DNA of 47,885 nt from Muribaculaceae bacterium (GTDB lineage: Bacteria; Bacteroidota; Bacteroidia; Bacteroidales; Muribaculaceae), in NCBI GenBank assembly GCA_003979155.1, contig RYWL01000004.1:1-47885 (forward strand), written 5' to 3'. Positions 3,115 to 18,845 of this stretch are shown here, one piece after another. Each line of letters starts with the position of its first letter. Positions within the stretch are counted from its first letter, which is position 1. A program made the position numbers and the translations under genes. The notes under the pieces were generated by a model. The model did no database searches. It worked only from the letters and a program-made list of their open reading frames with translations, and was not told the DNA's origin.

Positions 3115-3126
3115 TTTAGGCAACTC

Positions 3127-3954
3127 TTAGGAATTGGCGTGTCCCTCTCGGTAATCGTCGACGGCTTTCTTTACAGAGCCATGCATAAGCAGCAGACGAC
3201 GGGCCTCGTCGTAAGGCAGACCGAGTTCTTCCACAATCATGCGAGTGCCGCGGTCTACGAGTTTTGCATTCGAGAGCTGCATGTTCACCATTTTATTGCC
3301 TTTTACCCTGCCCATTTTAATCATTGTGGCAGTTGTAATCATGTTACATATCATCTTTTGTCCTGTGCCGCTCTTCATACGCGATGAGCCCGTGACATAT
3401 TCCGGTCCGACAATCATCTCGATAGGAATTTCGGCGGCTTCGGAGACGGGGGCATCAGGGTTAGATGTTATGGCAGCTGTGAGAATACCGCGTTTGCGGC
3501 ACTCTTTGAGAGCTTCAATCACATATGGTGTAGTGCCCGATGCGGCAATGCCGATTACAGTGTCGAGCTCATTGATGTTAAATTTCTCAAGGTCGCGCCA
3601 ACCCTGGAGAACGTCGTCTTCGGCATTCTCGACCGGATTGCGCAGGGCGATATCGCCGCCTGCGATTATGCCGATTACCCACGAAGGCTCCATGCCGAAT
3701 GTCGGAGGTATTTCCGAGGCGTCGAGCACACCGAGGCGTCCTGATGTACCGGCACCGATATAAAAAATACGGCCGCCACGTTTCATGCGGGGTACTATCT
3801 GTTCGACAAGGCGGCTGATTTGAGGCATAGCTTTCTCTACGGCAAGAGCCACCTTTTTATCTTCGTTGTTGATGTCGTGAATAATCTCAGCGACCGATTT
3901 CTTCTCGAGGTCGTTGTAAAGCGAGGGTTGCTCGCTGATTTTTACAAATGCCAT
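3127..3954 (-). CDS. murQ: N-acetylmuramic acid 6-phosphate etherase
   Basis: MurQ splits the lactyl ether of MurNAc 6-phosphate to give GlcNAc 6-phosphate and D-lactate in the cytoplasm. The 275-residue length is close to that of characterised MurQ proteins (about 300). Family signatures are clear: SIS-domain phosphosugar site IGAGTSGRLGVLDASE at about residues 67-82, the IAASGTTPYV loop at about 137-146, and GPEYVTGSSRMKSGTGQK at about 182-200. The order upstream, DUF5009 membrane protein then BadF kinase then MurQ, matches the murT-murK-murQ cluster described for Tannerella forsythia. It starts 11 bases after the kinase stop. The D-lactate product would feed the FAD/Fe-S dehydrogenase three genes upstream. 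Identification is firm. Confidence 0.97.
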   Translation of the reverse strand: MAFVKISEQPSLYNDLEKKSVAEIIHDINNEDKKVALAVEKAMPQISRLVEQIVPRMKRGGRIFYIGAGTSGRLGVLDASEIPPTFGMEPSWVIGIIAGGDIALRNPVENAEDDVLQGWRDLEKFNINELDTVIGIAASGTTPYVIEALKECRKRGILTAAITSNPDAPVSEAAEIPIEMIVGPEYVTGSSRMKSGTGQKMICNMITTATMIKMGRVKGNKMVNMQLSNAKLVDRGTRMIVEELGLPYDEARRLLLMHGSVKKAVDDYREGHANS

Positions 3955-3965
3955 TGTCGTGATGA

Positions 3966-4811
3966 TTAAGAGTGGAAAGCAATAAGACCTTTCATAGGAC
4001 TTTTTACGATGCTACCGATTTTACAACCCTCGGCTTCAGCAGCTTCGCGCAGAACATCGGCGAAGTAATAGGCGATTGAGCCTATGAAATTCACATTATG
4101 CGATTCATATTGGGTGTATTGACGAATATTGCGACGGAAAAATGCGCGGAAAGCGTTGTATACGAGTTCGTGAATCTCGGGAACGTTGATGTTTTTGCTC
4201 AGGAATGGTGTCACCGAGGCCAGGAAACGGTTTGCGAAAGGCTCTTTGTATACTCTGCGGATGATGGTGAGCAAATCAAGGTCGTATTCGCTGAGGAAAC
4301 GATCGCACACCTCGGCCGGCAGTTGTTTTTTGAGCACGTCGCCGAGGAAGAGTTTGCCAAGCACTGCTCCCGAACCTTCGTCGCCGAGCACGTAGCCCAA
4401 AGGCGATACATTCTGCACTATCGCCTGTCCGTCGTATAGGCATGAATTCGAACCTGTGCCCATTATGCAGGCAATGCCGGGCTCGTGGCCGCAGAGGGAG
4501 CGGGCCGCAGCGAGCAGGTCGGTGTATACCTCCACAGTCTCGGCCGAGGAGATGTTTGCCTTTATTGCATGTGCCACATTGGAGCATACCTCCTCGGAGA
4601 TACATCCGGCACCGTAGAAAAACACGGCAGATATTTGCTCCGCGAAATTGCCGAGCTCGGGAATGAGTTCGGCTGCTATTCGTTCGCGAATTTCTTCCTC
4701 TGAGAGCATGACGGCATTCATGCCCATGGTGAATATCTGCTTTTCCAGTTTGCCGTTTTTGAGGGCGCACCAGTCGATTTTGGTGCTTCCGCAGTCAGCT
4801 ATTAATATCAT
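3966..4811 (-). CDS. BadF/BadG/BcrA/BcrD-type sugar kinase, probable MurNAc/GlcNAc kinase (MurK-like)
   Basis: A 281-residue ASKHA-fold kinase. The phosphate-1 loop is ADCGSTKIDW near the N-terminus, the phosphate-2 region is CIMGTGSNSCLYDG at about residues 134-147, and LGDEGSGAVLGK follows at about 162-173, as in eukaryotic-type GlcNAc kinases and the MurK family. It should phosphorylate imported MurNAc or GlcNAc at O-6, producing the substrate of MurQ, whose gene follows 11 bases later. Its ATG overlaps the stop of the DUF5009 gene by four bases (4808-4811), which points to translational coupling. The sugar preference (MurNAc, GlcNAc or both) cannot be read from the sequence; gene order favours MurNAc. 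Confidence 0.9.
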   Translation of the reverse strand: MILIADCGSTKIDWCALKNGKLEKQIFTMGMNAVMLSEEEIRERIAAELIPELGNFAEQISAVFFYGAGCISEEVCSNVAHAIKANISSAETVEVYTDLLAAARSLCGHEPGIACIMGTGSNSCLYDGQAIVQNVSPLGYVLGDEGSGAVLGKLFLGDVLKKQLPAEVCDRFLSEYDLDLLTIIRRVYKEPFANRFLASVTPFLSKNINVPEIHELVYNAFRAFFRRNIRQYTQYESHNVNFIGSIAYYFADVLREAAEAEGCKIGSIVKSPMKGLIAFHS

Positions 4812-6010
4812 AGTTTTATATATATTTTCTTTTTATATAGAATCAATCCTATTAGCCAGTTCACAACAAGGAAAACTACGGCGAACATAAATGATGCAAA
4901 GGTTGCGTCGTCTCCACAAAGCGGAAGTAAATATTCGCTGTAGACAATACCTTTTATTGACATTGTACTCTCACCGAAAGGCACTCTGATAAAACTTATG
5001 AGAAGTGTCATCACGGCTCCGAGGCAGTAGAGGAAAAGGGGGTTGATGCCGAATACCTCAAAGAACCGACACCAGCGGCGATAGCCTTTTATATCTATAA
5101 TCCATATGAGAAGCCCGAGGAAACTCGATGCAAGACCACATGTGGTGAGAACGAACGTGGGCGACCATATTTTTTTATTTACAGGTATGCCGTAGTCGAG
5201 AAGGAACCCTGAGAATGTAAGTATTACGCCAACGATAAACAGCTTGTTGATGCGCAATTCGTTGTCGCGAGTGCTCATAATCAGACCTCCGCAGAGGAAG
5301 CCAATGAGCATGTGCGCTATCGAGGGGAATGTACTGAGCAGCCCTTCGGGATCGAGATGAAGCGATATATCGCCTATGGTCTCTTTATACAGATGATTGG
5401 GCCCGATGATTTTGTTGTCCACTATATAGAGCACATTTTTGTCGCTGAATTCAAATCCGTTGCCGAATATAAGAACAATGGCATAAACCACGAGCATGGC
5501 AACCACTGTCAAAGGCAGTCCTTTGCGTGGTATAAGCAGTGCCATTGTGGCTCCTACGCCGTAGCAGAGTGCCAGTCGGGGAATGACACCGAGGAGGCGG
5601 ATGCGGTCAAAGTTGAAAACAGCCTCGAGAAATGTGGCATCGTTATTAAGGCCGCGTAGAAACAGTCCGAACCATGCCACCGCCATGCCGATGAGGAAGA
5701 GCAGCACTGAGCGGCGTAGTATTTTCCAGAACGATTTGACGGAGAATTTAAAATCGTATTTCCTGAGTGAAAAATATGTGGAAATACCCATGATGAACAT
5801 GAAGAACGGAAAAACAAGGTCAGTGGGTGTGAGCCCGTTCCACTCGGCATGCCTGAGCGGAGCATACATGTGTCCCCACGAGCCGGGGTTATTCACCAGA
5901 ATCATTCCGGCTATTGTGATTCCTCGAAGAATATCAAGCGCGAGCAGACGTCCGCTTACTTTTTGAGGCTTCGGATTCTCTGATATCATATTCTGAGAAT
6001 GCTGTTTCAT
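4808..6010 (-). CDS. DUF5009/COG4299 polytopic membrane protein, candidate inner-membrane MurNAc transporter (MurT-like)
   Basis: A 400-residue integral membrane protein with about ten hydrophobic segments, starting with LDILRGITIAGMILVNNPG (about residues 25-43), the hallmark of the heparan-alpha-glucosaminide acetyltransferase/NagX-like DUF5009 family. Members of this family are often labelled acyltransferases, but in Tannerella forsythia a protein in the same position (before the kinase and murQ) was shown to be needed for MurNAc uptake and named MurT; that comparison is from memory of the literature. Here the same three-gene order is present. It overlaps both the upstream gene (6007-6010) and the downstream kinase gene (4808-4811) by four bases. 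Transport is therefore the favoured role; transmembrane acetyl transfer to an amino sugar is the alternative. Confidence 0.8.
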   Translation of the reverse strand: MKQHSQNMISENPKPQKVSGRLLALDILRGITIAGMILVNNPGSWGHMYAPLRHAEWNGLTPTDLVFPFFMFIMGISTYFSLRKYDFKFSVKSFWKILRRSVLLFLIGMAVAWFGLFLRGLNNDATFLEAVFNFDRIRLLGVIPRLALCYGVGATMALLIPRKGLPLTVVAMLVVYAIVLIFGNGFEFSDKNVLYIVDNKIIGPNHLYKETIGDISLHLDPEGLLSTFPSIAHMLIGFLCGGLIMSTRDNELRINKLFIVGVILTFSGFLLDYGIPVNKKIWSPTFVLTTCGLASSFLGLLIWIIDIKGYRRWCRFFEVFGINPLFLYCLGAVMTLLISFIRVPFGESTMSIKGIVYSEYLLPLCGDDATFASFMFAVVFLVVNWLIGLILYKKKIYIKL

Positions 6011-8829
6011 ATGTTATCGCGATATTTGGGCTGGGCAGACGGAGTGGTGCACTCGTCTACAAGATACACAATCGACTTATATGGAATTCCCGAGTTGGTG
6101 GTCAGGCCTATTTCGCAGGTGCGCGAATTGGAGTAACCGTATTTGATTCCGGCTTTCTCTATCTGCTCGCGAAGTTTGCGGAGTCCCCATGCATTGAGTT
6201 CGGGATGGGTGAAACCCTTGTCGCCTGCAAAGCCGCAACAGCCCACTTGTTCGGGAACGAGTACATGAGCCGAGCACATGCCGGCGAGTTTCACTATTTT
6301 GTCGGCAATGCCCATACGGCGTGTCGAGCAAGTGATGTGCACGGCCACAGGTGTGTCATGGCGGTGGAATACAAGATTCTGAGCCAGACAGTCGTGGATG
6401 AATTCGGCCGGTTCGTATAGTTTAACCGACTTAATATGCTCTGTCATACGGTGCAGACACGGGCTTTGATCGCATACAATGGGCCAGCGACCGTTTTCCG
6501 ATGCGGAAATCAGCGCAATCTCGAGTTCCGACAGTTTTTGGTCGGCGATATCGGGCATACCTTTGCTTTCCCATATCATGCCGCAGCACAGGTCTTTGAG
6601 ATTTTGTGGAAATATGACTTCGTATCCGGCTTTGTTGCAGAGGTTCACAAACATATCCACTAATGGCCGGATTGTTGTGTCCGATTCTTCCGATCGTCCC
6701 ATGGTGCGGTTGATGCACGATGGATAATAGACAACCTTTAGCTTCTGCGGCTCAGTCTGCGCCGACACGGTTTCGATCGGATTATATGGAACTGGCAGGG
6801 CAGAAGTCCATAGCGGCATTCCGAGTTTGTGAAGCCCTTTGCCGAGAGCTTCAACTCCTTTGTCTCCAATCATGGCGTGGGCTACCGACGCGGTTCCAAG
6901 TGCTATGCGCAAACCAGTAGAGACACCTGCAAGGTGTTGTGCCGCCCAGCGTCCGAGTTTCTTTTGGTTTGTTGTCAGTGCCTGCTCTCTTACCTCATGA
7001 ATAAGGTCGCCGGTATTTATTTTCATCGGACACGATGTGCTGCACAGGCCGTCGCCTGCGCATGTATCGGCTCCGTAATATTTATAGCTGTCTATAAGAG
7101 ATTTCAGCCGTTCGGGGTCTCCGTTGTCCGATTTCAGACGTGATATTTCTCTGTGCGCCACGATGCGCTGCCGGGCAGACAGCGTAAAGCCGCAACTGAC
7201 ACAATTGGGCTCGCAGAAACCGCACTCGATACATTTGTCGACTATCGGGGAGGTAAGGGGCAGCGGTTTCATGCCGTGCACAAAGCACTCGGGGTCATCA
7301 TTGAATATGACACCGGGATTCAGCAGCTCCAGCGGGTCGAAAGCTTTTTTGAGCCGCTTCATTATTGTCCATGCCTTGGAGCCCCATTCTGACTCAACAA
7401 AGGGTGCCATGTTGCGCCCTGTGCCGTGCTCGGCCTTGAGAGAGCCGTCGTAGCGTCGTACAACGAGCTCTTCTATATGACTCATGAGGTTGCGGTATTT
7501 GTTCACCTCTTCCTCTGTGTCAAATGATTGGGAGATTATGAAATGGTAGTTGCCTTCAAGCGCATGTCCATAGATGCATGCGTCGTCGTAGCCGCAGTCT
7601 TCAAGAAGGCGGGCGAGTTCTACCGAAGCCTCAGGCAAATCGTCGATATGGAATGCGATATCCTCGATTAATACTGTTGTACCCGGTTTGCGCGTACCGC
7701 CCACAGCCGGGAATATGCCCGAGCGCATTTCCCACCATGCTGCGACTTCGGCTGCGTCGGTTGAAAAATGAGCAGGTTTGAAAAGCTTGAAGTTTCTGAT
7801 TACGTCGAGCGTGGCATTAATCTGTCGGTCAAGTTGTTCGGCAGTCTCTGCTTCGGTCTGGACGAGCAGTGCCGTGAGATTGCTGCCGGTTGTATCGTTT
7901 ACAGACCGGAGCGATTTACTGTCGAGAAGTTCGCATGCCTGCACCGGAGCGCTCTTACGCATTGCCACTACAGCACGGCATGCTTCGGCCATATCATCGA
8001 AGTATATCATTGCCGATGCGGCATAAGGCTGCTTGAGCTTGGTGTTGAATCTCACTTCGCTTATAAACGCGAGTGTGCCTTCGCTGCCCACCATACAGTG
8101 TGCGATGATGTCGAACGGGTCGTCGAAAAGGACGAAAGGCAGTATGTTGAGACCCGTAACGTTCTTTATGGAATATTTGTGCTGTATGAGCTGTGTCAGT
8201 TCCGGATCTTGGCGCACTTCGTCGCGGATTGCCTTTATTTCGTCGAGCAGGGAGCTGTGCTTGTCGGCGAACGCTTTGCGCGATGTTTCGTCGGCAGTGT
8301 CGAGCACAGTGCCGTCGGCAAGAACAATGCGAATGTCGCGGAGTATGCGGTCGCTGTTGGCGTGTGTGCCGCACTTCATGCCCGATGCGTTATTTGCTAC
8401 AATACCGCCAACCATAGCGGCTTTTTTTGATGCAGGGTCGGGCGAGAAGACGCGGCCATAGGGCGCAAGGATTTCGTCGACGCGCGCGCCTCGGATACCG
8501 GGCTGCAGTGCTATGCCTTTGGCTTCGGGGTCGAGCAGCCGGTATTTGTCCCATAATGTACCGGCCTCAATGATAATTGAGTCGGAAATAGCCTGGCCGG
8601 ACAGACTTGTGCCTGCCGCACGGAATGTAAGCGGCAATTTCAATGCTGTTGCCTGCTGGAGCACTGCCGTTACTTCGTTCTCGTCGGCCACACGCACCAC
8701 GACCTTGGGAAGAAGACGGTAGAATCCCGCATCAGTGCCCCATGCGAGACAACGCAAATCGTCGCTGTAAATGCGCGTCCGGGGTACAGTACGGCTTATT
8801 TCCCGTATGAACTTTTTGTAGTTGTCCAT
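6007..8829 (-). CDS. FAD-binding and (Fe-S)-binding oxidoreductase, probable D-lactate dehydrogenase
   Basis: A 940-residue protein combining an FAD-binding PCMH/GlcD half with a GlpC/LutA-like Fe-S half. The FAD part shows TFRAAGTSLSGQA and GGIVANNASGMKCGTHANSDRI in the N-terminal 180 residues and the vanillyl-alcohol-oxidase type C-terminal region KAEHGTGRNMAPF at about 460. Two [4Fe-4S] motifs follow, CIECGFCEPNC at about 530 and CAGDGLCSTSC at about 590, then two CCG domains (LCCGMIWES near 745 and VGCCGFAGDKGF near 863). This is the Dld-II/GlcD-GlcF fused architecture used for D-lactate or other 2-hydroxyacids. Its position between namZ and the MurT/MurK/MurQ genes makes oxidation of the D-lactate set free by MurQ the obvious task. 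Its ATG shares one base with the namZ stop. Substrate is inferred from context. Confidence 0.85.
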   Translation of the reverse strand: MDNYKKFIREISRTVPRTRIYSDDLRCLAWGTDAGFYRLLPKVVVRVADENEVTAVLQQATALKLPLTFRAAGTSLSGQAISDSIIIEAGTLWDKYRLLDPEAKGIALQPGIRGARVDEILAPYGRVFSPDPASKKAAMVGGIVANNASGMKCGTHANSDRILRDIRIVLADGTVLDTADETSRKAFADKHSSLLDEIKAIRDEVRQDPELTQLIQHKYSIKNVTGLNILPFVLFDDPFDIIAHCMVGSEGTLAFISEVRFNTKLKQPYAASAMIYFDDMAEACRAVVAMRKSAPVQACELLDSKSLRSVNDTTGSNLTALLVQTEAETAEQLDRQINATLDVIRNFKLFKPAHFSTDAAEVAAWWEMRSGIFPAVGGTRKPGTTVLIEDIAFHIDDLPEASVELARLLEDCGYDDACIYGHALEGNYHFIISQSFDTEEEVNKYRNLMSHIEELVVRRYDGSLKAEHGTGRNMAPFVESEWGSKAWTIMKRLKKAFDPLELLNPGVIFNDDPECFVHGMKPLPLTSPIVDKCIECGFCEPNCVSCGFTLSARQRIVAHREISRLKSDNGDPERLKSLIDSYKYYGADTCAGDGLCSTSCPMKINTGDLIHEVREQALTTNQKKLGRWAAQHLAGVSTGLRIALGTASVAHAMIGDKGVEALGKGLHKLGMPLWTSALPVPYNPIETVSAQTEPQKLKVVYYPSCINRTMGRSEESDTTIRPLVDMFVNLCNKAGYEVIFPQNLKDLCCGMIWESKGMPDIADQKLSELEIALISASENGRWPIVCDQSPCLHRMTEHIKSVKLYEPAEFIHDCLAQNLVFHRHDTPVAVHITCSTRRMGIADKIVKLAGMCSAHVLVPEQVGCCGFAGDKGFTHPELNAWGLRKLREQIEKAGIKYGYSNSRTCEIGLTTNSGIPYKSIVYLVDECTTPSAQPKYRDNI

Positions 8830-10058
8830 TATTTGTAGAGGTGGTATTTAGCGGATGCTTTTCTGAATGTATCCACGTCTTTATTCCAATAGTCTTCGAT
8901 ATCGGCCACTTTATAGTTTTTGGTGAAGCGGCGGCGAATTTCCTTGCTGCCAGTCACTTTGTCGAACATGTTCATGCGGCTCTGGTCTCCGATGTCGAAG
9001 AGTTTTTTGTCGGGATACATATCGGCAAGCTCCTGCATCACATAGAATTGCGTGAGAGTGATAGGTGCTATATTCTTATCAACCACATAAGCCTCTATAC
9101 CCTGCAGATTCTCGCCCTTGCCGGTGCTGTAGAAAGGCTTGATGTATATGGGGCGGAATTTCATGCCGGGCAAATTGAGGCCGTTCATACGACGTGCGAG
9201 TTCGGGCGCGTCAATCCATTCGGCGCAGAATAGTTTGAAAGGTTCGGTATAGCCAACGCCGATAGAAATGGCGTAGAGCTCGCCCAAAATACCCGACATA
9301 GGATAGTAGAGCGCCGTTTCGGATGTTGGAATATGAGGGGAGGGAAGAACCCACGGCATGCCTGTAGCACGGAAATCCATATCGCGCTTGTATCCTTCCA
9401 TAGGCACAACGGTGAGGTCGGTTTTCTTGCCGCCGGCAATCAGTCGTTCTTCGTTAAGATACATAGCGAGTTCGCCTGGCGTGAGGCCATAGAGATATGG
9501 AATGGGAAATTTGCTGACGAATGAGAAGCACGAGTCTTCCACGATATTGCCCTCTATTTTGTCGCCTCCGATAGGGTTCGGGCGGTCGAGTACCATGAAT
9601 TTCTTGCCTTGCTCGGCGCAGGCTTCCATAGCGGCTCCCATGGTAGAGATGAATGTGAACGAGCGGCAACCGTTATCCTGAATGTCGTATATAAGCACAT
9701 CCACGTCTTTGAGCATTTCGGGTGTGGGTTTGTAGGTCGCTCCATATATGGAGTACATTGGTACTCCTGTGGCTTTGTCGACCGACGCATCGACCTTGTC
9801 GCCGGCATGGACATCGCCGCGTACGCCGTGTTCAGGCGAATAAAGGCCTACGAGTTCTACATCGGGAGCTTCGAAGAGTATATCAATTGTCGACTTGAGA
9901 TTGTTGTCAACTCCTGTGGGGTTGGTTATAAGTCCCACTCGTTTGCCATGGAGTCCTTCGAAGTTGTTGTCGCGGAGAACTTCTATGCCGGGTTTTACCT
10001 GTGCGGCGAGGCTGAGTGTCACCGCAGCGCAAAGAGTCGCTAATATCGTTTGTTTCAT
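8829..10058 (-). CDS. namZ: Exo-beta-N-acetylmuramidase (NamZ family, DUF1343), exported
   Basis: A 409-residue DUF1343 protein with a signal peptide (MKQTILATLCAAVTLSLAAQ). Family landmarks are GLITNPTGVD, YSPEHGVRGD (about residues 74-83), IYDIQDNGCRSFTF, LDRPNPIGGD and PSPHIPTSETALYYP. NamZ of Bacillus subtilis was shown to release MurNAc from the non-reducing end of peptidoglycan fragments, founding this family of glycosidases. Here the enzyme would act in the periplasm and supply free MurNAc to the MurT-like transporter encoded downstream. Its ATG overlaps the ampG-like stop by four bases (10055-10058). Family call is firm; strict exo activity is from the family. Confidence 0.92.
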   Translation of the reverse strand: MKQTILATLCAAVTLSLAAQVKPGIEVLRDNNFEGLHGKRVGLITNPTGVDNNLKSTIDILFEAPDVELVGLYSPEHGVRGDVHAGDKVDASVDKATGVPMYSIYGATYKPTPEMLKDVDVLIYDIQDNGCRSFTFISTMGAAMEACAEQGKKFMVLDRPNPIGGDKIEGNIVEDSCFSFVSKFPIPYLYGLTPGELAMYLNEERLIAGGKKTDLTVVPMEGYKRDMDFRATGMPWVLPSPHIPTSETALYYPMSGILGELYAISIGVGYTEPFKLFCAEWIDAPELARRMNGLNLPGMKFRPIYIKPFYSTGKGENLQGIEAYVVDKNIAPITLTQFYVMQELADMYPDKKLFDIGDQSRMNMFDKVTGSKEIRRRFTKNYKVADIEDYWNKDVDTFRKASAKYHLYK

Positions 10059-11968
10059 TGTTTCTCTATTTTACGTCCGAAGTTCGGGTCAATTTTTATA
10101 AAAGCGCATATGCCGATTGTAGCGGCGCAGCAAATCATTGTCCAGATGAAGAAATGGCGGTAGCCGATTGTCTCCTGTAGCCAGCCTGCAGCCATGCCAG
10201 GCAACATCATGCCAAGAGCCATGAAACCCGTACAGATAGCGTAGTGAGCCGTTTTGTGTTTGCCTTCGGAGAAGTAGATAAGGTAGAGCATATAGGCTGT
10301 AAAGCCGAAGCCATAGCCGAACTGTTCGACGAACACGCAGATGTTTACCGTGAGGAGGCTGTGATCGCTCGCGTAGCTAAGGTAGACAAAAGTGAGGCAT
10401 GTGAGCGACATTGACCATGCCATGGGCCACAGCCACTTTTTGAGGCCGCCTTTTGCCGCTACAATGCCGCCGATTATGCCGCCGAGAGTAAGACCAATGA
10501 TACCGACAGTGCCGTAGACAACGCCTACTTCACCGGTTGTGAGTCCGAGACCACCTTTGTCGATAGGGTCGAGCAGGAACGGATTGATGAGTTTTACAAG
10601 CTGAGCCTCCGGCAGACGGTAAAGCAGCATGAAGGCTATTGCCACCCATGCCTGGGGCTTGTTGAAGAATGATTTGAATGTCTCGAAGAACTCTGCAATG
10701 ATGCTCGATGCAGAGTTGCCGGCTTCATTGTTTCCGTCGCTTGCCGGACGCGGCAGTGCCCAGCTGTGATATGCGGCGACTATGAAGAAGAATGCCGACA
10801 GAACAGCAAAGACAATTGACCATGCAAGTGGTATGTTGCCAGAGGCGCCTTCGAAGCTCGCTGTTGTGGGTTGTGTGAGTTTATGGTCGACTTCGTAGAA
10901 CAGATAAGCGGGTTTGTCCCAGTTGTCGGCGGTGAATATAAAGCGTGTGGAGAGCTTGTTCTGCTCAAGTTTGATGCTTTGGTCGCCCGACTTATGAGTT
11001 ACGTTGAGCACAATCTCCTCGCCCTGCTTCGGTTGTTTGTTGAGACGTACTCCAACAATGGCAAAGTTATTGTCTCGGGCTGTGAATGGCTGACGGTCTT
11101 CGCCGAAATGCTTTTTCACCCATGCGGTGAATGACGAGGGACCCTTGTCGGCAGCAACCGTAGCCTCTCCGGCTGCGGCAGCTTTTGTCTCTGCCACGAC
11201 GAACCCGTTGCGCTCGTTCATATTCTTTACAGAATCGCGCATTATTGCCGAGTAGCGCCCGAATGGCATTGTTTCCTCTTTGCCGTTGACCATCACAGTC
11301 ACCTCTTCGGGCGTATTTACTGCAACATTGATGTCATTTACGGGAGTGAAGAATTCGAGCTCTCCTGCAAGGTCGGACGATGCCGAATATATTGCGTCGA
11401 GCTGTGGCGCTTTCCATTCTGCGGCCGGGTCGGCGTTGACAGTCACAGCCACTGGCGCGAGTCCCGAATTGGTCTCGATGAATCCGGCTATAATCACAAG
11501 CAGACCTTGCCCCGCCACTGTAGCGATGCGATAAAATGTTGAACGAATACCTACATAGAGCGACTGCTCGTGCTCAGTAAGGGCGTGCATATAGAAGCCG
11601 TCGGCTGCTATATCGTGTGTGGCCGAGGTGAAGCCAACAAGCCAGAAAATGGCAAGAGTAAGCTGAAAGAAGAATGGAGCCGGAATGGCGAATGCGATGC
11701 CTGCAAGTGCGAACGCTATTATCCACTGCATGGTGAGCGTCCACCAGCGCTTGGTCTTTATAATGTCGACAAATGGACTCCAGAAGGGTTTGATTACCCA
11801 CGGCAGATAGAGCCAGCCGGTATATAAGGCGATGTCGGTGTTGGAGATGCCGAGACGCTTGTACATAATCACCGAGATTGTCATCACGGCTACGTAAGGC
11901 AGACCTTGCGCAAAGTAAAGCGTCGGAATCCATGCCCAGGGGTTACGTTTGCTTGTGTTTTTCATCAA
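10055..11968 (-). CDS. AmpG-like major facilitator permease with a large periplasmic insert
   Basis: A 637-residue MFS transporter; AmpG proteins import muropeptides or GlcNAc-anhydroMurNAc. The first five membrane helices lie in residues 13-165 (WIPTLYFAQGLPY at the first), including the AmpG-like segments KPFWSPFVD and GFTSATHDIAADGF. Helix six resumes at about residue 379 (NIPLAWSIVFAVLSAFFF). The roughly 210 residues between are soluble and beta-rich and, with an N-in topology, sit in the periplasm. The second helix bundle (residues 440-637) is ordinary and includes GFTAYMLYLIYFSEGKHK. The length is well above the usual AmpG size of 430-490 because of the insert. It starts five bases after the SpoIID gene stop. 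Transport role is by family and context; the insert is discussed as a finding. Confidence 0.88.
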   Translation of the reverse strand: MMKNTSKRNPWAWIPTLYFAQGLPYVAVMTISVIMYKRLGISNTDIALYTGWLYLPWVIKPFWSPFVDIIKTKRWWTLTMQWIIAFALAGIAFAIPAPFFFQLTLAIFWLVGFTSATHDIAADGFYMHALTEHEQSLYVGIRSTFYRIATVAGQGLLVIIAGFIETNSGLAPVAVTVNADPAAEWKAPQLDAIYSASSDLAGELEFFTPVNDINVAVNTPEEVTVMVNGKEETMPFGRYSAIMRDSVKNMNERNGFVVAETKAAAAGEATVAADKGPSSFTAWVKKHFGEDRQPFTARDNNFAIVGVRLNKQPKQGEEIVLNVTHKSGDQSIKLEQNKLSTRFIFTADNWDKPAYLFYEVDHKLTQPTTASFEGASGNIPLAWSIVFAVLSAFFFIVAAYHSWALPRPASDGNNEAGNSASSIIAEFFETFKSFFNKPQAWVAIAFMLLYRLPEAQLVKLINPFLLDPIDKGGLGLTTGEVGVVYGTVGIIGLTLGGIIGGIVAAKGGLKKWLWPMAWSMSLTCLTFVYLSYASDHSLLTVNICVFVEQFGYGFGFTAYMLYLIYFSEGKHKTAHYAICTGFMALGMMLPGMAAGWLQETIGYRHFFIWTMICCAATIGICAFIKIDPNFGRKIEKQ

Positions 11969-11973
11969 AGATA

Positions 11974-13299
11974 TTAATAAAGATTACTGAGAGAGGCTCC
12001 GGGAAAATAGTGGAAAAGAATTTTGTCGAAGGAGTAGCCGCGGGCGCTCATTACGGCAGCACCAATCTGGCACAGACCGACACCATGACCCCAGCCGGCC
12101 CCACGAAGTGTGAATTTGCACGGAACTGCGTCGTCCTCAAAAGTCTCAGTCTCCACAACGAATGCCGACGAATACAGATGGGAAGACGAAAGCGTGCGTC
12201 GTATTTCAAGTTCCTTGCCTATGGTCATGGTGCGTTTCGTTCCGGCGATTTTCAGCCGGACTATGCGACCCGATGTGCCGCGTTCGAGAGGCTCGAGCGA
12301 TATTATTTGGCCAAAGTCGATGCCCGAACGCTCACGAATGAGAGCCGACAGCTCATCCTGAGTATATTCTACCGTCCAGCGGTAAAAGTCGGATGTCTCC
12401 TGGTCGTAATTGTTGAGCACTTGACCGAGAATCCGGGCGTCGGAAGTGTTGCAGAATGCATCCGGAGTTCCGAGAATCCATTTTTTCGCGTTTTCCTCAA
12501 CACGCAGGTCGGGGAAGTCGGTTGTGGTGTCGGAGTCGCGGCGTGCCACGAGATAATGATGATGCCGGGGTTCCCAGCAGTTGTCGAATTCTTCAAATAC
12601 TCCGCCGCAACACTTCGAGAAGCGTGCGTCGCAGAGCTTGCCGCAGTTGTCAGTGAGTACGAGCCCGCGTGTTGCTTCGATAGCTTGCCGCACTGTAGGC
12701 GTGCTCTGACGGGTTATGCCCTGGTAGCGCTGGCAGTGATCGTCGGCGCACACGTCGAAGTTGACATGGTCGTCGCGGTCGTACCAACGGACAATCTCGT
12801 TGTCTGTACGGGTACATGATTTGCAGTTGCAGGTCTCATCCTTGTGCCAGCGCCGCTCAATCTGTGCCAGTATCCAGCTTCGTGAAATCACGGCATGCGC
12901 CTTGAGGAACTCAAGATTGGCCGTGGCGCTCATTTCCGAACTTATAACACTTGTGAGATAACTCTCCACCGGCAGTATGTTGATTAGTGTGATAGCGCCG
13001 TTCTCAACTATAAGGCTTATATTTCCACAGAATTGCTGGGTTTCGCGCCGTTCCCAATGGAAATTAACCCCTATAATTACATCGGAGACCTCAAAAGTGG
13101 CATCGTCACCGGCTGCAGAGAAGTCAAGTCGAGTGTAATTACGTCCTTGCCACTCTATCTTGCCGTTGCGAGTTACGGCGAATGTCTGAGTTCCGGTCAA
13201 AGTGCCGGGAACTTCTGCGCAGCAATAGGGCTGCATCAGCGATATCTGTATCTGAGGAGCGTTCAGAATACCTACTTTGATTGTGGGTTCTCCTTGCAT
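11974..13299 (-). CDS. SpoIID/LytB domain protein, probable peptidoglycan glycan-strand lytic enzyme
   Basis: A 441-residue protein with the SpoIID fold. The catalytic region is ESYLTSVISSEMSATAN at about residues 125-141, where the Glu of SSEM matches the catalytic Glu of SpoIID, followed by FLKAHAVISRSW. The C-terminus has the hallmark GAGWGHGVGLCQIGA and the segment ending in HYFPGASL. A cysteine-rich stretch (CNCKSCTRTDN, then CADDHCQ) lies between. Clostridial and Bacillus SpoIID cleave glycan strands that have lost their peptides. No signal peptide is evident at the N-terminus (MQGEPTIKVGIL), so location is uncertain. It is found between the DUF4922 gene (45-base gap) and ampG (5-base gap) in the salvage series, where it could shorten glycan strands. 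Confidence 0.85.
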   Translation of the reverse strand: MQGEPTIKVGILNAPQIQISLMQPYCCAEVPGTLTGTQTFAVTRNGKIEWQGRNYTRLDFSAAGDDATFEVSDVIIGVNFHWERRETQQFCGNISLIVENGAITLINILPVESYLTSVISSEMSATANLEFLKAHAVISRSWILAQIERRWHKDETCNCKSCTRTDNEIVRWYDRDDHVNFDVCADDHCQRYQGITRQSTPTVRQAIEATRGLVLTDNCGKLCDARFSKCCGGVFEEFDNCWEPRHHHYLVARRDSDTTTDFPDLRVEENAKKWILGTPDAFCNTSDARILGQVLNNYDQETSDFYRWTVEYTQDELSALIRERSGIDFGQIISLEPLERGTSGRIVRLKIAGTKRTMTIGKELEIRRTLSSSHLYSSAFVVETETFEDDAVPCKFTLRGAGWGHGVGLCQIGAAVMSARGYSFDKILFHYFPGASLSNLY

Positions 13300-13344
13300 T
13301 ATCGGATAAGAAAATAGCGTTTAGATAGTATTTTTACGTTTTAC

Positions 13345-14274
13345 TTACATCAGCTTTGCCGCAATTGCGTCTATTTCATCTTTCGACAGGCAGAGCTCGT
13401 CGAAGACACGGCGGATAATGTCGCTGTCGAGGCGTTCGAAGTCTTCGCGGCGAGGAGTGATGAAAACACCACCCATATCTACCGATGCCGGGCTGAGAAG
13501 CATACACTCCGAGCCTTCGGTGCCATAGAACGACGGACGGTGCTTCTTGCGGGGAACGACAAGTGTGCGCACGCCGGCGGCAGTGGCGTAGCAGAGCACG
13601 TTCATCATGGGCTCTGTATCTCCTTCGCCGACAGGAAGAGCTTCATATAATCTGTCAAAAATTATTTCAGCGCTTTCGGCTGAGGTCGAATCTATGACAA
13701 ATACATTGAGCGGCAGGCCGGCTGCAAGTGAGAGTATGGCTCCATCGGCTTCTGCAATTGTCTGAAGTTCGGCGTTTTCGACTGCGTCGCCAATGGTGAG
13801 GAAGTCGGAATTCCCGGCCTGAAAATGCATGTGGTCGGGAGCCGAAGCCCCGCATTTCGGGCCGTTGTAGAACACCGTGTATCCGGAGAGTTCCGACACC
13901 AGCCGTGCCATGTCGGCAATGCGGCCTTTGATAAGTTGCAGGGTGTGGCTGTTGTCGGGAATCGTGAGATGACGGGGAAATATAGGGAAGGGGTTGACAA
14001 GGATAGTGTAGCGTCCTCCCCAGGCAATGCCGCGCTGTTCGGACGGACGGTTGGCATCGCAGAGAAAGCACTTTCGCGCTTTGAGAGATGCCGCGTCGAC
14101 TTTGGCTCCCGACGATACTATTCGCGCCGGGTTGAACTGTACCTTCATGGGCATGCCTGGCATGTCAATTTCTTTGACCTCGACATTTTCGAGGGCTTTG
14201 AAATTGGCAGCGGCAAGTGGCCACTCGGCAAGCTGAGCATTTATGAACGTATCTATTTTATCGGCTGTCGGCAT
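13345..14274 (-). CDS. DUF4922 protein, HIT/GalT-like nucleotidyltransferase or phosphorylase fold
   Basis: A 309-residue soluble protein of the DUF4922 family. It carries a CFLCDANRP motif at about residue 70 (zinc-like CxxC as in GalT relatives), an IPRHLTIPDN-type segment near 115, and DHMHFQAG at about residue 150. The H-x-H-x-Q core resembles the active site of the histidine-triad GalT/Ap4A-phosphorylase branch (HPHxQ). This suggests nucleotidyl transfer or phosphorolysis of a nucleotide sugar, but no biochemical role is known to me. The ATG overlaps the stop of the glycosyltransferase gene at 14274, so the two are likely made together. Family call is good; function is unknown. Confidence 0.75.
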   Translation of the reverse strand: MPTADKIDTFINAQLAEWPLAAANFKALENVEVKEIDMPGMPMKVQFNPARIVSSGAKVDAASLKARKCFLCDANRPSEQRGIAWGGRYTILVNPFPIFPRHLTIPDNSHTLQLIKGRIADMARLVSELSGYTVFYNGPKCGASAPDHMHFQAGNSDFLTIGDAVENAELQTIAEADGAILSLAAGLPLNVFVIDSTSAESAEIIFDRLYEALPVGEGDTEPMMNVLCYATAAGVRTLVVPRKKHRPSFYGTEGSECMLLSPASVDMGGVFITPRREDFERLDSDIIRRVFDELCLSKDEIDAIAAKLM

Positions 14275-15740
14275 TATTTATTCTGTTTGTTGAGAGCTAT
14301 ACGTGCTTCAAGTTCCCAGGTGCGGATACGGTCTTTATAAAGGTCGTTGGCGTTCACTTTATTTATGTCGAGTGCTGCGTCTGAATTGTCCTCCCAGCGA
14401 CGGCAGTTGTAAACAACGTCGTAGACACGTCCTATCTGATTCTTGCGTGAGAAAGCCAGTCCGAGAGCGTAGTCTTCGCCATAGGAAGTGTTGGGCACCA
14501 TGATTTCGCGGAGCATGGGTGTGTAGAACGCACGCGGAGCACCGAGCCCGTTGATGCGGAGGGCATTGTTGCGTCCGTTCTCGGGAGTCCATTCGCGGTG
14601 GTCGATAATGCCCGGCGGAATAGTATTGAGTTCTATGTCGGTGAGGCGGTATGTTCCGACAACCATGCCCGAATTATTATCGTAGAAAGCCTTTACCATT
14701 TTGGCGAGAGTATTCTCGTCGGAGTATACGTCGTCGGAGTCGAGCTGCACGCAAAATTTGCCTGCTTTGCTGTGGTGAGCGCCTACATTCCAGCATCCGC
14801 CGATGCCGAGGTCATCGCGTTCGGGTACGATATGTATCAGACGTTCGTCGTCTTTGAACTCGTCGATAGCCTCTGTGGTGCCGTCGGTAGAGTGGTTGTC
14901 GATGATGATGAGATTAAACTTGAAGTCGGCTTTCTGAGAGAGGACGCTACGGATTGCGTCGCGTATTGTGCGCACACGGTTGCGGACGGGGATTATTACT
15001 GATGCCTCATATTCGAAATCGCCTTTGTCGAATTCGATTTTGTCGAATACGGGCTCGAGATATGCGCCTACGGCTTTGAGATGCTCTGTGCATGCTTCCT
15101 CCATTTCAATCTGCACGCCACGGTTCTTCGGGTCGACGTAATCAAAGATTTTTTCGCCGGATTTACGCGTGTCGAGTTCAACGTCGCTGTAAAGGTACTC
15201 ATTGATGTGAACAATGGGTGCAATACGGCTGAGGCGGAGTCGCAAATCGTAGAGGCCTGCAGCAGTATATTCACGGTCGATGCCGGCAGCGGCTGTACGG
15301 AAGTCTTTGTTGCTGAAGAAAAGCACCGAGCCGAAATTGAAATTGTCGCGGAGCGAGCCCTTCTGATAGTCAATTACGGGCGACGCTGTGCGTTTGCCTT
15401 CGGAAACGCTGTAGTGGTCGGCATAGAGCATGCCGGCCTGCGTGTCGGCAGCTATTTTTACGAAGCGGTCGATAGCGAGATATCCGGGCACGAGATGATT
15501 GTACTTGGTATAGAGGAGAATGTAGTCGGCATTGGCGGCATCGGCGATTTTCTTCATTGTTGCCGATGAGTTTATGCTATCGATATGTATTAGGTCGCAA
15601 CCGAGGCATGGTTTTGCTGTTGCGTCGGTCGACAGAAGGGTTATCTTTTCTACAAGAGCGCTTTCACGCAGCGAGGCCACGGTTGCTTTAATCTGGGCTT
15701 CGCCGGCAAAAGGAAGAAAGCACTGAACGGTTGGTTTCAT
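14274..15740 (-). CDS. Two-domain family 2 glycosyltransferase
   Basis: A 488-residue cytoplasmic protein with two GT-A-like halves. The N-terminal half (residues 1-230) begins QCFLPFAGEAQIKATVASLR and contains YILLYTKYNHLVPG, but I see no good DxD motif. The C-terminal half (from about 247) is a standard GT2: ASVIIPVRNRVRTIRDAI, IIDNHSTDGT, GGCWNVGAHHSKAG, then LDSDDVYSDE with the metal-binding DxD at about residue 340 and YGEDYALGLAF near 425. It probably moves a sugar from a nucleotide donor. It follows the amidase gene by 63 bases and overlaps the DUF4922 gene by one base. Donor and acceptor are unknown; the pairing with a GalT-like protein suggests they act on one sugar. Confidence 0.82.
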   Translation of the reverse strand: MKPTVQCFLPFAGEAQIKATVASLRESALVEKITLLSTDATAKPCLGCDLIHIDSINSSATMKKIADAANADYILLYTKYNHLVPGYLAIDRFVKIAADTQAGMLYADHYSVSEGKRTASPVIDYQKGSLRDNFNFGSVLFFSNKDFRTAAAGIDREYTAAGLYDLRLRLSRIAPIVHINEYLYSDVELDTRKSGEKIFDYVDPKNRGVQIEMEEACTEHLKAVGAYLEPVFDKIEFDKGDFEYEASVIIPVRNRVRTIRDAIRSVLSQKADFKFNLIIIDNHSTDGTTEAIDEFKDDERLIHIVPERDDLGIGGCWNVGAHHSKAGKFCVQLDSDDVYSDENTLAKMVKAFYDNNSGMVVGTYRLTDIELNTIPPGIIDHREWTPENGRNNALRINGLGAPRAFYTPMLREIMVPNTSYGEDYALGLAFSRKNQIGRVYDVVYNCRRWEDNSDAALDINKVNANDLYKDRIRTWELEARIALNKQNK

Positions 15741-15803
15741 CTTTGTTATGTTGTTTTTAATAGTTAGCGGTTGTTGTTAGTGTTGTGGCTTTTAACCAGC
15801 TGC

Positions 15804-18773
15804 TTACTTTTTGTTTACAGGTGTAGGATTGGTGAGGAAATCGAGAACTTGCTTCATGAGGTGTGCCCGATTGCCTGCATCTTTGATTGTCTCGAACGGG
15901 AAGCCGATTACGGTCGTACGGTAATTGCCGTTGTCGAATATGGTGCCTGCTATGAGGTTGTTTTCGCTGTATCGCATGAAGGTTGCGCCTTTCTCTGTGT
16001 CGACGGGATAGAAGGAGTCGGGCGATTCTACGGCATAGCATTCAGGGCCGAGTTCGGTGACGAAGTCATAGCTGCCTTTTGTAAAATCTTTATAACGGGT
16101 CTGCACCTGATAAGCTTCGCCTTCGACTGTCGCCTGACCGACACGCCAGTTATAGCCGAGCACGTCGCGCGCAAATTTCTTGTCGGCCTCGGCAACTTCT
16201 TCCGAAGAGTTGGGATTGTCCCATATGTCGGTTGCCACAAAAGCTCCGCTTACAAAGAAACTTGTGCCTTCGGAAGTAAGAGAGGAAATGCGCGACTGTA
16301 ACTCTGAGGGGAAAGCCTTAAAACGGGTGCCATAGAAGCCGCGGCCCTGTTTGATTTCTTTCTGTTTGCCGAGAATAAGGTCTACAAGTGCCGGTTTGTC
16401 GCCTGCGTTGCAGAAAGCGTCGACGCTCGATGATATGAATGAAAAACCGGCTTTGCGAATAGCCTCGCCATGAGTGACCACATAGTCGAATGTATTGCCT
16501 GCCACAACCTTGTCTTCGTAGTTGGCACGAGATGCGCCGAATCCGGCTGCGTCATCATCCATCCAAGGTATGTTGCGACGGAATTCGAACATACTGCCTA
16601 TAAATGATATATCTTCAACGTAAGGTACGCCGTGGTCGCGGGTATCGTAGAAACCGGCGATGTCGCCTGAATCAAATCGGTCGGGAGCGCTGACACGTGT
16701 AAAGCCGTTGACAATGGTGACACACGGTTTGCCTGTGCCGGCATTGCAAAGTGCGAGTACTTCGGAGGGGAATGATACACCGCCGTCGTTGCCAGCGATT
16801 ATGCGGTAGGAGTGTATTTCGTTGTCGTCTACGGCGATGTTGAAGGCCGGTTCCGATACTTTTGCTACCGGAATGAATGCGCCGTCGGCCACGCGCTCTT
16901 CTATTATATAGTATGAGGGCATTGCGGTAGGTTCGGTTTTGTCGGGAGTCGCCTGCCAGGTAAGGGTGTAATCGGCGGCGCCTGAAGCCGAAATAGCAAA
17001 GCTTCTTACGGGTAGCGGCTGCACAACATAGCTACGGTTGTCGCGGCGTGCAAGGAATTTGAGCATGCCTTTATATATGGCGCGTGATACCACGAAGCGG
17101 AAAGCCGGGTCGAGGCCATAGCTCATGTCGGCGAAGTTCTGATGCGAGAGGAGCTCGAGAAGCATTGCAGGAACTTGAGGCACACGGGCCTCGAAATAAC
17201 TCTCGTCCCACATGCCGCGACGTGTCCAGTTGGGTTCAAACGACGCACGCACATCATCGACTATATTGGTCATCACATCGTTGGTAAAGTCACGCGAAAC
17301 TCCGCGGTTGCTGCCGTTGCCGAGTTTGTCGCCGGCAGTGCAGTATATGCCGAGTGTTCCGATAATCGAGTCGTTCATCGTCGTGCCGGCATCGGAATGA
17401 AATGCGAAACTGAGGTCTACAGGAATGCCGAGACCTTCGCTATCGGGGAGCATCGACGAGCCGCCGGCAAGCCAGTTGACCCATAGGCCGCGGCTACGGT
17501 AGTCGTCGGTGTAATCGTTGACATAATCCGACGGTGTAAACACGCTGTCGGGAGCGCCGGCCCATTGCAGAAAATAACGGGCGCCTTCGGTAAAACGGGG
17601 ATAGCCGCTCGTCACATATTCAAAATCTATGTCATCGGTGCTGTCTTTTACCTTACGTGCTACATTGCCCATGCCGCCGCCAAATTTTACGGCATCGGCA
17701 GTCACTACAGATTTTTTATTCTTTCCGGCGTTGGAGAGTTCGACTATGGTCTTAACACCGTTGCTTTTTTTGAAAGGAAAATGGCCGAGGTAAATCCATG
17801 TTCCGCCACCCATTTTCTGATTTATGGTGAAACAGTGGTCTCCGTCGGCGGCTTTCACAATATATTCGGCAGCTGTGGTGCTGTTGGGGAGCGATACATA
17901 GCTTACATAAACGGCATACTTGCCGTCCGATGGTATTGACGCTTTCCACTGAGCCGTTGCCGACGCTTCTTTTTTGCCGGAGAGGTTTGCTTTGAGAGCC
18001 GTTCCGGCAGTAAACGGATGGTCGCCGTTTTCGAGAGTCGCTTTTTTGTATGCAAACGCTGCTTTGCCGGCATCCGACCAGTTGCCGGTAGTGTCGAAAT
18101 GGCCGGTGGCGAATTTACTTCCGTCGTTGTCGGCGATGATTTCTACACGTTGGGTATCGCGTTCACGTGGCGACATCACATATGCGCCGGCATTTTCCAG
18201 CATCGGCATCAGGAAAGGCATTACATAACTTTGTGTATACAGGTCTTCCACGGTCTGGAATATACGTGCGCGTTGCCATTCCCAACGGTTGAGCTTTGGT
18301 TCGAAATACCAACCGTGACTTTGCCAAAGCGCAATGTTGGCGCCGTCGAGGCCCGATGGTGCTGCCTGTCGGTCTTTGCGGACAACAAAAGCATTCTTTT
18401 CTTTAGGGCCATTGTTTTTCTTCGGTCGGTAAAGAGCGATGTCGTCGAGCGATTTACCGGCGCTATAGAGCTTTACCTTATATCCGGCATACTCAGGACC
18501 GAGCTCTTTCAGAACATCGGCTTTGAGTGCTGCGACACCTTCGGCTGCAAGCGGAAGGTATGAGGCCGCTTTGTTGTAGTTTACGGTAACGGTGCGCTTG
18601 TTTGTCGAAATTTCTACACTGTCGGCTTTGATTTTGCCGAATCCCGAAGTGCCGGGCATATATGCTTTTGTAGCTTGGGCTGCGGCATCCTCATTTGAGA
18701 GAGACTGCGCCTGCAAAGGTGCGGCTGTTAAAGTCGCTACACAAAGAAGCGGGAATATATTTGTGGCTTTCAT
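15804..18773 (-). CDS. Large exported Amidase_3-type N-acetylmuramoyl-L-alanine amidase-like protein with golvesin-like and fibronectin-like domains
   Basis: About 989 residues with signal peptide MKATNIFPLLCVATLTAAPLQAQS. I prefer the ATG at 18771-18773; a GTG five codons upstream exists. The catalytic domain looks split: SHGWYFEP near residue 151 (zinc His), VEDLYTQSYV (zinc Glu), LENAGAYVMSPRERD (the LE-x-x-GA-x-V-x-x-x-R-x-x-D pattern of Amidase_3), FHSDAGTT near 459 (His) and LLELLSHQN near 541 (Glu). A golvesin/XLY-like domain is inserted at about 245-370, and a fibronectin-like stretch follows at about 600-690. The rest (700-985) is unassigned. Such proteins are often called xanthan lyase in databases, which I do not follow. 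It is the first gene after a strong promoter, so it likely heads the salvage operon and removes stem peptides in the periplasm. Confidence 0.75.
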   Translation of the reverse strand: MKATNIFPLLCVATLTAAPLQAQSLSNEDAAAQATKAYMPGTSGFGKIKADSVEISTNKRTVTVNYNKAASYLPLAAEGVAALKADVLKELGPEYAGYKVKLYSAGKSLDDIALYRPKKNNGPKEKNAFVVRKDRQAAPSGLDGANIALWQSHGWYFEPKLNRWEWQRARIFQTVEDLYTQSYVMPFLMPMLENAGAYVMSPRERDTQRVEIIADNDGSKFATGHFDTTGNWSDAGKAAFAYKKATLENGDHPFTAGTALKANLSGKKEASATAQWKASIPSDGKYAVYVSYVSLPNSTTAAEYIVKAADGDHCFTINQKMGGGTWIYLGHFPFKKSNGVKTIVELSNAGKNKKSVVTADAVKFGGGMGNVARKVKDSTDDIDFEYVTSGYPRFTEGARYFLQWAGAPDSVFTPSDYVNDYTDDYRSRGLWVNWLAGGSSMLPDSEGLGIPVDLSFAFHSDAGTTMNDSIIGTLGIYCTAGDKLGNGSNRGVSRDFTNDVMTNIVDDVRASFEPNWTRRGMWDESYFEARVPQVPAMLLELLSHQNFADMSYGLDPAFRFVVSRAIYKGMLKFLARRDNRSYVVQPLPVRSFAISASGAADYTLTWQATPDKTEPTAMPSYYIIEERVADGAFIPVAKVSEPAFNIAVDDNEIHSYRIIAGNDGGVSFPSEVLALCNAGTGKPCVTIVNGFTRVSAPDRFDSGDIAGFYDTRDHGVPYVEDISFIGSMFEFRRNIPWMDDDAAGFGASRANYEDKVVAGNTFDYVVTHGEAIRKAGFSFISSSVDAFCNAGDKPALVDLILGKQKEIKQGRGFYGTRFKAFPSELQSRISSLTSEGTSFFVSGAFVATDIWDNPNSSEEVAEADKKFARDVLGYNWRVGQATVEGEAYQVQTRYKDFTKGSYDFVTELGPECYAVESPDSFYPVDTEKGATFMRYSENNLIAGTIFDNGNYRTTVIGFPFETIKDAGNRAHLMKQVLDFLTNPTPVNKK

Positions 18774-18814
18774 GGATAAAAGTTTCACTCTTTATATAGT
18801 TTGTCTTTATTCCA

Positions 18815-18845
18815 CAAAGGTAAAGCTAAAAACAATTGCAACAAA
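18815..18845 (-). promoter_or_regulatory. Bacteroides-type promoter for the peptidoglycan salvage operon
   Basis: On the minus strand TTTG (18842-18845), a 19-base spacer, then TACCTTTG (18815-18822) match the Bacteroidota -33/-7 consensus perfectly. Transcription would start near 18811 and give a leader of about 38 bases before the amidase ATG at 18773. Confidence 0.75.

Follow-up and report, generated by a model that had tools for sequence, protein, structure and literature searches.

A Tannerella forsythia-type MurNAc salvage operon with a predicted D-lactate dehydrogenase gene in a Muribaculaceae genome

The stretch of DNA analysed here, positions 1 to 47,885 of contig RYWL01000004.1 from a Muribaculaceae bacterium (47,885 nucleotides (nt) at full length, hereafter the window), carries a minus-strand block of ten close-packed genes, running from 18788 to 3127, that forms a predicted operon for the salvage of muropeptides and N-acetylmuramic acid (MurNAc). 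All ten genes are present in the place and order listed by an initial annotation of this DNA. From first to last, they encode a 994-amino-acid (aa) protein with a GTG start (15804..18788); a family 2 glycosyltransferase (GT2; 488 aa, 14274..15740, PF00535 at 7.1e-24); a DUF4922 protein (309 aa, 13345..14274, PF16269 at 6.5e-65); a SpoIID/LytB-domain protein (441 aa, 11974..13299, TIGR02669 at 159.3 bits against a cut-off of 83.3); an AmpG-like muropeptide permease (637 aa, 10055..11968); the exo-beta-N-acetylmuramidase NamZ (409 aa, 8829..10058, PF07075 at 7.8e-82 and PF20732 at 2.5e-39); a D-2-hydroxyacid dehydrogenase with flavin adenine dinucleotide (FAD) and iron-sulfur (Fe-S) domains (940 aa, 6007..8829), most likely acting on D-lactate; a MurT-like inner-membrane protein (400 aa, 4808..6010); a MurK-like kinase (281 aa, 3966..4811); and the MurNAc-6-phosphate etherase MurQ (275 aa, 3127..3954, TIGR00274 at 308.7 bits, over the cut-off of 302). 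The dehydrogenase gene lies between namZ and murT, murK and murQ, where the annotation had placed it. Neighbouring genes overlap by 1-4 nt at five of the nine junctions (GT2-DUF4922 and NamZ-dehydrogenase by 1 nt; AmpG-NamZ, dehydrogenase-MurT and MurT-MurK by 4 nt), and the others are spaced by 63 nt (first gene-GT2), 45 nt (DUF4922-SpoIID), 5 nt (SpoIID-AmpG) and 11 nt (MurK-MurQ), which makes the earlier wording of "mostly" 1-4 base overlaps slightly generous. An SGNH/GDSL hydrolase gene (222 aa, 2455..3123, minus strand, PF13472 at 7.4e-22) starts 3 nt past murQ and is possibly the last gene of the unit, such that the operon may comprise perhaps eleven genes. Among 67 named loci that contain murQ, 47 have a gene of this kind no more than 1 kb past murQ, or 43 of 61 once loci with 1 kb or less of room are set aside; that it serves to de-O-acetylate MurNAc is a guess.

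The identities proposed for the first gene, MurT and MurK draw mainly on operon position. Inspection of the first gene reveals amidase-like motifs. Pfam gives only a Golvesin_C domain, an Fn3-like domain accompanies it, and the fold search returns Fn3 and xanthan-lyase/Golvesin-like parts only, none of its 50 best matches being an amidase. The label of amidase given to this gene initially draws on motif resemblance and is without support from Pfam or from those matches; the Golvesin_C domain splits the putative amidase core and may mask a match to an amidase family or fold. The MurT-like protein, of HGSNAT_cat/DUF5009, NagX-like type, scores 22.5 bits against PF07786 (cut-off 22), 20.6 bits against PF16401 (cut-off 25) and 119 bits against NF046061 (cut-off 480), and its position is that of murT in Tannerella forsythia. 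The MurK-like kinase has no match in a Pfam search; beyond its position, it shows a weak NagK match and 37-54% identity to the murQ-adjacent gene in the loci of other families. The AmpG-like permease contains a long central insertion and matches TIGR00901 in two stretches at 172.1 bits, under the cut-off of 350. In relatives, AmpG is mostly either about 440 or about 630 aa long, both inside and outside the family.

Upstream of the first gene lies a promoter-like element of the Bacteroidota -33/-7 type, TTTG-N19-TACCTTTG (18815..18845, minus strand), which fully matches the Bacteroidota promoter consensus and is the sole match in the window. This single match compares with a chance expectation of 0.42, and 32 of 100 shuffles hold one. 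Twenty of 82 relative loci could be examined upstream. The -7 box (TAnnTTTG) occurs within 250 nt of the first gene in 19 of these 20 relatives versus 19% of shuffled upstream stretches, and 135 of 1516 windows elsewhere have one. Just 2 of the 20 show the complete two-box motif, as do 8 of the 1516. The promoter proposed earlier has a candidate counterpart in this element. Scans for sigma-70 promoters (20 found versus 16.2 expected) and terminators (17 versus 18.6) give no signal.

To describe the conservation of the dehydrogenase, we used 297 genomes of the window's family (Muribaculaceae, as inferred). Strong homologues and MurQ were each detected in 131 genomes; both occur in 129, each alone in 2 and neither in 164, with the genomes not independent owing to shared descent. 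Of the 129 with both, 97 have them on a shared strand no more than 8 kb from each other, 1 has them far apart on one contig and 31 have them on different contigs, the last being no proof of distance in fragmented assemblies. Seven further genomes with homologues of 35-38% identity were set apart from this count, and MurQ is matched in none of them. At 80 named loci, which were picked by the dehydrogenase and hence contain it by construction, the next gene is murT in 70 of the 73 that leave space for it, and the gene before is namZ in 59 of 70. Conservation of the dehydrogenase gene beside murQ and namZ, on which the initial annotation had staked its proposal, is thereby borne out. Two operon copies (L175, L142) show no murT-like gene between the dehydrogenase and murK.

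The association extends beyond the family. A draw of 198 genomes from the order contains a full-length homologue in 20, with MurQ in 18 of these versus 26 of the remaining 178. Two other families (G109, G165) carry the operon complete with the dehydrogenase. The gene sits immediately past namZ in G041, and G007 and G125 have it divergent from namZ. In G059, of the same genus as G165, namZ stands directly beside murT and there is no dehydrogenase match. These data bear on whether the dehydrogenase is a chance neighbour, that is to say a housekeeping gene that landed in the operon once in one lineage and was then inherited. Such an origin would fit the 31 family genomes with the two genes on different contigs, 19 of which belong to genus g166, as well as the three g166 copies read, which lie beside CotH-type or other unrelated genes, and the several other families where the gene is away from murQ. 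Against it, links to salvage genes recur in families f8, f41, f59 and f109 in different arrangements, and the detached copies still share a genome with MurQ. Given the co-occurrence, a chance neighbour is already disfavoured and we consider it very improbable. At g166 loci L172, L174 and L178, the genes beside the dehydrogenase are CotH-domain genes, two with dockerin.

Several properties of the enzyme bear on its substrate, most likely D-lactate. Its single chain contains FAD_binding_4, FAD-oxidase_C, 4Fe-4S and CCG domains (PF01565, PF02913, PF13183, PF02754), all over the Pfam cut-off, a combination that we take to define the FAD/Fe-S D-lactate dehydrogenase (Dld-II-like) family. Residues H422, H429, E467 and H468 are invariant in 22 of 22 alignment rows, YdiJ and GlcD included; the first three are presumably the metal-site His/His/Glu and H468 the catalytic His. 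The predicted structure (mean predicted local distance difference test score of 88.4) has mouse LDHD and a bacterial D-lactate dehydrogenase as top fold matches, with human D2HGDH slightly behind. Ordered by sequence, the matches are LctD, this same bacterial dehydrogenase (entered as glycolate oxidase) and LDHD, and then D2HGDH. In a quick tree (midpoint root, long branches), the dehydrogenase and 38 relatives (39 rows) stand apart from six YdiJ-like paralogues and Escherichia coli YdiJ, and the permease- and lut-linked relatives fall within a five-row clade branching off before the operon members. The relative in G130 lies directly after a lactate permease gene, in a genome with no MurQ match, and that in G015 is preceded by genes for a permease, an unknown protein, LutA, LutB and LutC. 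Two residues past the second metal-site His, all 149 family rows carry I, V, L or A, in contrast to R or K in 10 of 10 YdiJ-like rows (duplicate loci included); a basic residue at that position might accommodate a second carboxylate. As a specificity marker, the Lys with which human D2HGDH binds a carboxylate does not discriminate, since YdiJ is also without it in the alignment.

Action on another D-2-hydroxyacid, either D-2-hydroxyglutarate as for YdiJ or glycolate, would leave the position in the operon unrelated to the product of MurQ. This alternative draws on the layout shared with E. coli YdiJ (L180), in which FAD domains are followed by an Fe-S/cysteine-rich part over about 1000 aa, and on the best NCBIfam models, GlcD (TIGR00387, glcD, 183.9 bits, cut-off 567.9) and YdiJ (NF049975, 146.8 bits, cut-off 1350), both far under their cut-offs. 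YdiJ of E. coli and of Pantoea ananatis is reported to be without D-lactate activity (PMC9504171). The dehydrogenase shares only 21% identity with E. coli YdiJ and differs from it in tree group and in the residue past the metal site. An identity as YdiJ itself was rejected on the score and the separate tree group. The tight murQ linkage, the lactate-gene neighbours in two relatives and the 116 of 198 order genomes that hold only the weaker kind of match (136 with any match minus the 20 full-length) also speak against another hydroxyacid, which we regard as an improbable substrate.

A further set of observations weighs against D-lactate oxidation coupled to MurQ. GlcD is the best NCBIfam model despite its low score, and the fold scores of LDHD and D2HGDH are close (TM-score to target 0.87-0.89 versus 0.83). 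The Lut-linked copy in G015 is broken into pieces, one of which was placed in the tree. Permease or Lut neighbours occur at only 2 of 19 order loci, with a 29% LutC-like match 7 kb away at L037 as a weak third case, and no lactate-gene neighbours were seen at any of 20 phylum loci, one of which spans just 3.2 kb, or at any of 6 additional loci where the gene is detached. Scanned neighbours of other detached copies are unrelated (CotH, SusD, CinA, a sigma-54 activator, aminopeptidase P, a carboxyl transferase and others). The operon published for T. forsythia and the 26 MurQ genomes of the order draw are without the dehydrogenase, G002 holds a homologue without MurQ (the single neighbour scanned being CinA), and the co-occurrence tests ignore shared descent. 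On balance, the 940-aa enzyme is most likely a D-lactate dehydrogenase, judged by domains, murQ linkage and co-occurrence, fold matches and tree; the function proposed initially fits the conservation and linkage.

To place the dehydrogenase within a pathway, we combined direct observations of gene content and order, conservation, co-occurrence, enzyme family and predicted fold, and the absent MurA and MurB matches presented below; substrate, acceptor, direction of flux and the transport and hydrolysis steps are what we infer. A secreted hydrolase and NamZ would free muropeptides and MurNAc, AmpG and MurT would import them, and MurK would make MurNAc-6-phosphate. MurQ is reported to yield N-acetylglucosamine-6-phosphate (GlcNAc-6P) and D-lactate (PMC5790795). 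The FAD/Fe-S enzyme would then turn D-lactate into pyruvate and pass electrons via its Fe-S part to an acceptor, for which menaquinone is a guess. A T. forsythia-type salvage operon equipped with a dehydrogenase for the D-lactate released by MurQ is, in our judgement, a likely account of the locus. On the same strand, a gene off the operon for a NagB-like glucosamine-6-phosphate deaminase (26857-27666, minus, PF01182) could carry the GlcNAc-6P branch onward.

The benefit of such an oxidation step can be considered separately from its chemistry. D-lactate might be oxidised mainly for waste removal or to keep MurQ running, with no meaningful gain of energy. In a strain of Corynebacterium glutamicum engineered for growth on MurNAc through MurQ, lactate is reported to accumulate, and the authors find more dld conceivable as prevention (PMC6165865); the operon in the window looks like a natural form of that remedy. 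As published, the T. forsythia operon is without the dehydrogenase, and the organism still grows on MurNAc. Both observations would suit waste removal. Excretion of lactate could suffice for the same end, however, and a large FAD/Fe-S enzyme may fit respiratory use. We hold a mainly disposal-driven role to be possible and somewhat doubtful.

The initial annotation, which presented the operon as a source of amino sugar and electrons, missed a gap in the supply of cell-wall precursors. Neither MurA (TIGR01072) nor MurB is matched in the window's genome, which is 76% complete. Across a sample of 45 genomes of the window's genus, to which the MurB and MurC scans were confined, the MurA model gives some match in 29 and exceeds 330 bits in only 6; the other matches, at 18-38 bits, are probably AroA. 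MurB is found in 5 of the 45, all within the six MurA-positive genomes and beside murA on the same contig. In contrast, the MurC model matches all 45 at E<=1e-30, with 216-330 bits in 42 and none reaching the cut-off of 335.1; the remaining three (G477, G461, G745) score just 127-141 bits and may represent another Mur ligase. Among the genus genomes listed in the family draw, ten are 99% complete (G200, G227, G247, G266, G283, G297, G310, G323, G363, G378). Eight of these have no MurA match at E<=1e-30, G200 and G363 being the two with MurA, and all ten contain both the dehydrogenase and MurQ. With MurA and MurB seldom detected and MurC-type ligases retained, most of the genus would seem to be MurNAc auxotrophs, like T. 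forsythia. For the same reason, building the wall may depend on the operon, beyond its supply of carbon and electrons.

Across the family, 176 of 297 genomes have MurA. The 121 others include 102 with MurQ and 2 with the dehydrogenase only, and MurA is kept in 29 of the 131 that bear MurQ. Loss of MurA is therefore found mostly (104 of 121) in genomes with MurQ or the dehydrogenase, the other 17 being of uncertain completeness. A possible route from imported MurNAc to wall precursors is suggested by six genomes (L223-L228), each with an APH-matching gene (476-492 aa) that precedes one for a nucleotidyltransferase, NTP_transferase being found in 6 of 6. Both kinases scanned (L223, L224) have a Pfam-confirmed RapZ C-terminal fusion. 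The best NCBIfam sugar-enzyme models are MurU for 4 of 4 transferases scanned and AmgK for the kinase domain of 2 of 2 kinases scanned, all below cut-off. Five of the six genomes with this AmgK-like and MurU-like pair are MurA-less (G000, G247, G202, G323, G378) and G200 has MurA. No APH match is found in G227, which is 99% complete and MurA-less, and only a shorter one in G219. In the window's own genome (L223), the pair lies on contig 2 at 25-822 and 875-2353 (minus strand); at L224 the corresponding genes follow clpP-clpX-recQ. Part of the imported MurNAc in the window's genus would thus probably become uridine diphosphate (UDP)-MurNAc through the AmgK-like kinase and MurU-like uridylyltransferase, whose genes lie outside the operon, and the operon would then feed both catabolism and the making of the wall. 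We lean, by a small degree, towards a broader picture in which much of Muribaculaceae would be obligate MurNAc scavengers: MurA and MurB would have been lost, wall fragments of neighbours would be taken in through the operon, the dehydrogenase would draw pyruvate and electrons from the lactyl group of MurNAc, and the operon would have come first and enabled the loss.

Targeted searches of the open-licence literature, judged by titles and abstract openings, yielded no report of MurNAc auxotrophy in Muribaculaceae and none of this dehydrogenase gene inside a MurNAc operon. The nine-gene operon is already known, the added dehydrogenase is absent from its published gene list, and the more surprising result is that most of the genus is predicted to depend on MurNAc. 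The arrangement would bring the breakdown of MurNAc and the use of its lactyl group together in a single natural cluster, and it offers a testable function for a large uncharacterised flavoprotein family. The gap at MurA and MurB predicts that these members of a common gut family need wall fragments of other bacteria for growth; if they are auxotrophs, the operon would be a lifeline. In the records covered, these bacteria are known mostly from metagenome-assembled genomes, and a need for MurNAc, if true, would help explain poor culturability, suggest MurNAc as a medium supplement and predict indifference to MurA inhibitors.

Known systems share parts of this arrangement. In Shewanella oneidensis, lldP-dld (SO_1522-SO_1521) and lldEFG are described (PMC5432575), placing a D-lactate dehydrogenase gene by a lactate permease and an L-lactate complex, as for the relative in G015. 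The partner in the window is instead a MurNAc operon, and lactate would arise inside the cell; the likeness drawn is one of gene context. Fidelibacter multiformis, a peptidoglycan auxotroph living on muropeptides, is said to release D-lactate from MurNAc-6-phosphate and to oxidise it by a D-lactate dehydrogenase (PMC11652737). The same two steps are therefore said to occur there, in another phylum and, as described, without a joining operon.

The closest counterpart is the T. forsythia operon, compared here by published gene order and annotation. Its ybbC is, by position, presumably the NamZ gene of the window. Tanf_08345-08385 are reported in the order xanthan lyase, GT, GT, lytB, ampG, ybbC, murT, murK and murQ (PMC5388701; PMC7670621). 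Nine window genes match this published order, GT2 and DUF4922 included, in line with the likeness of the murTKQ part to T. forsythia noted initially. The GT2/DUF4922 pair had been seen as an extension of the pathway, a view we reject because the T. forsythia operon has two glycosyltransferase-annotated genes at those positions (PMC5388701). The first gene there is annotated as xanthan lyase and holds the same position as the 994-aa protein of the window. Tf_MurT is assigned to the sodium symporter superfamily (PMC5790795), in contrast to the HGSNAT/DUF5009/NagX models of the window's MurT, a comparison of family labels. Reverse transcription PCR is reported to show the nine genes as one transcript that begins 17 bp before the first gene and ends at murQ (PMC5388701); a promoter there, and a promoter-like element in the window, stands close before the first gene, whereas the SGNH gene follows closely behind murQ in the window. 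Both murA and murB are reported missing from T. forsythia (PMC5790795), as they are mostly not found in the window's genus. The sole addition in the window is the dehydrogenase gene between namZ and murT. That is to say, the operon is the known T. forsythia-type muropeptide/MurNAc operon plus one conserved, functionally apt gene.

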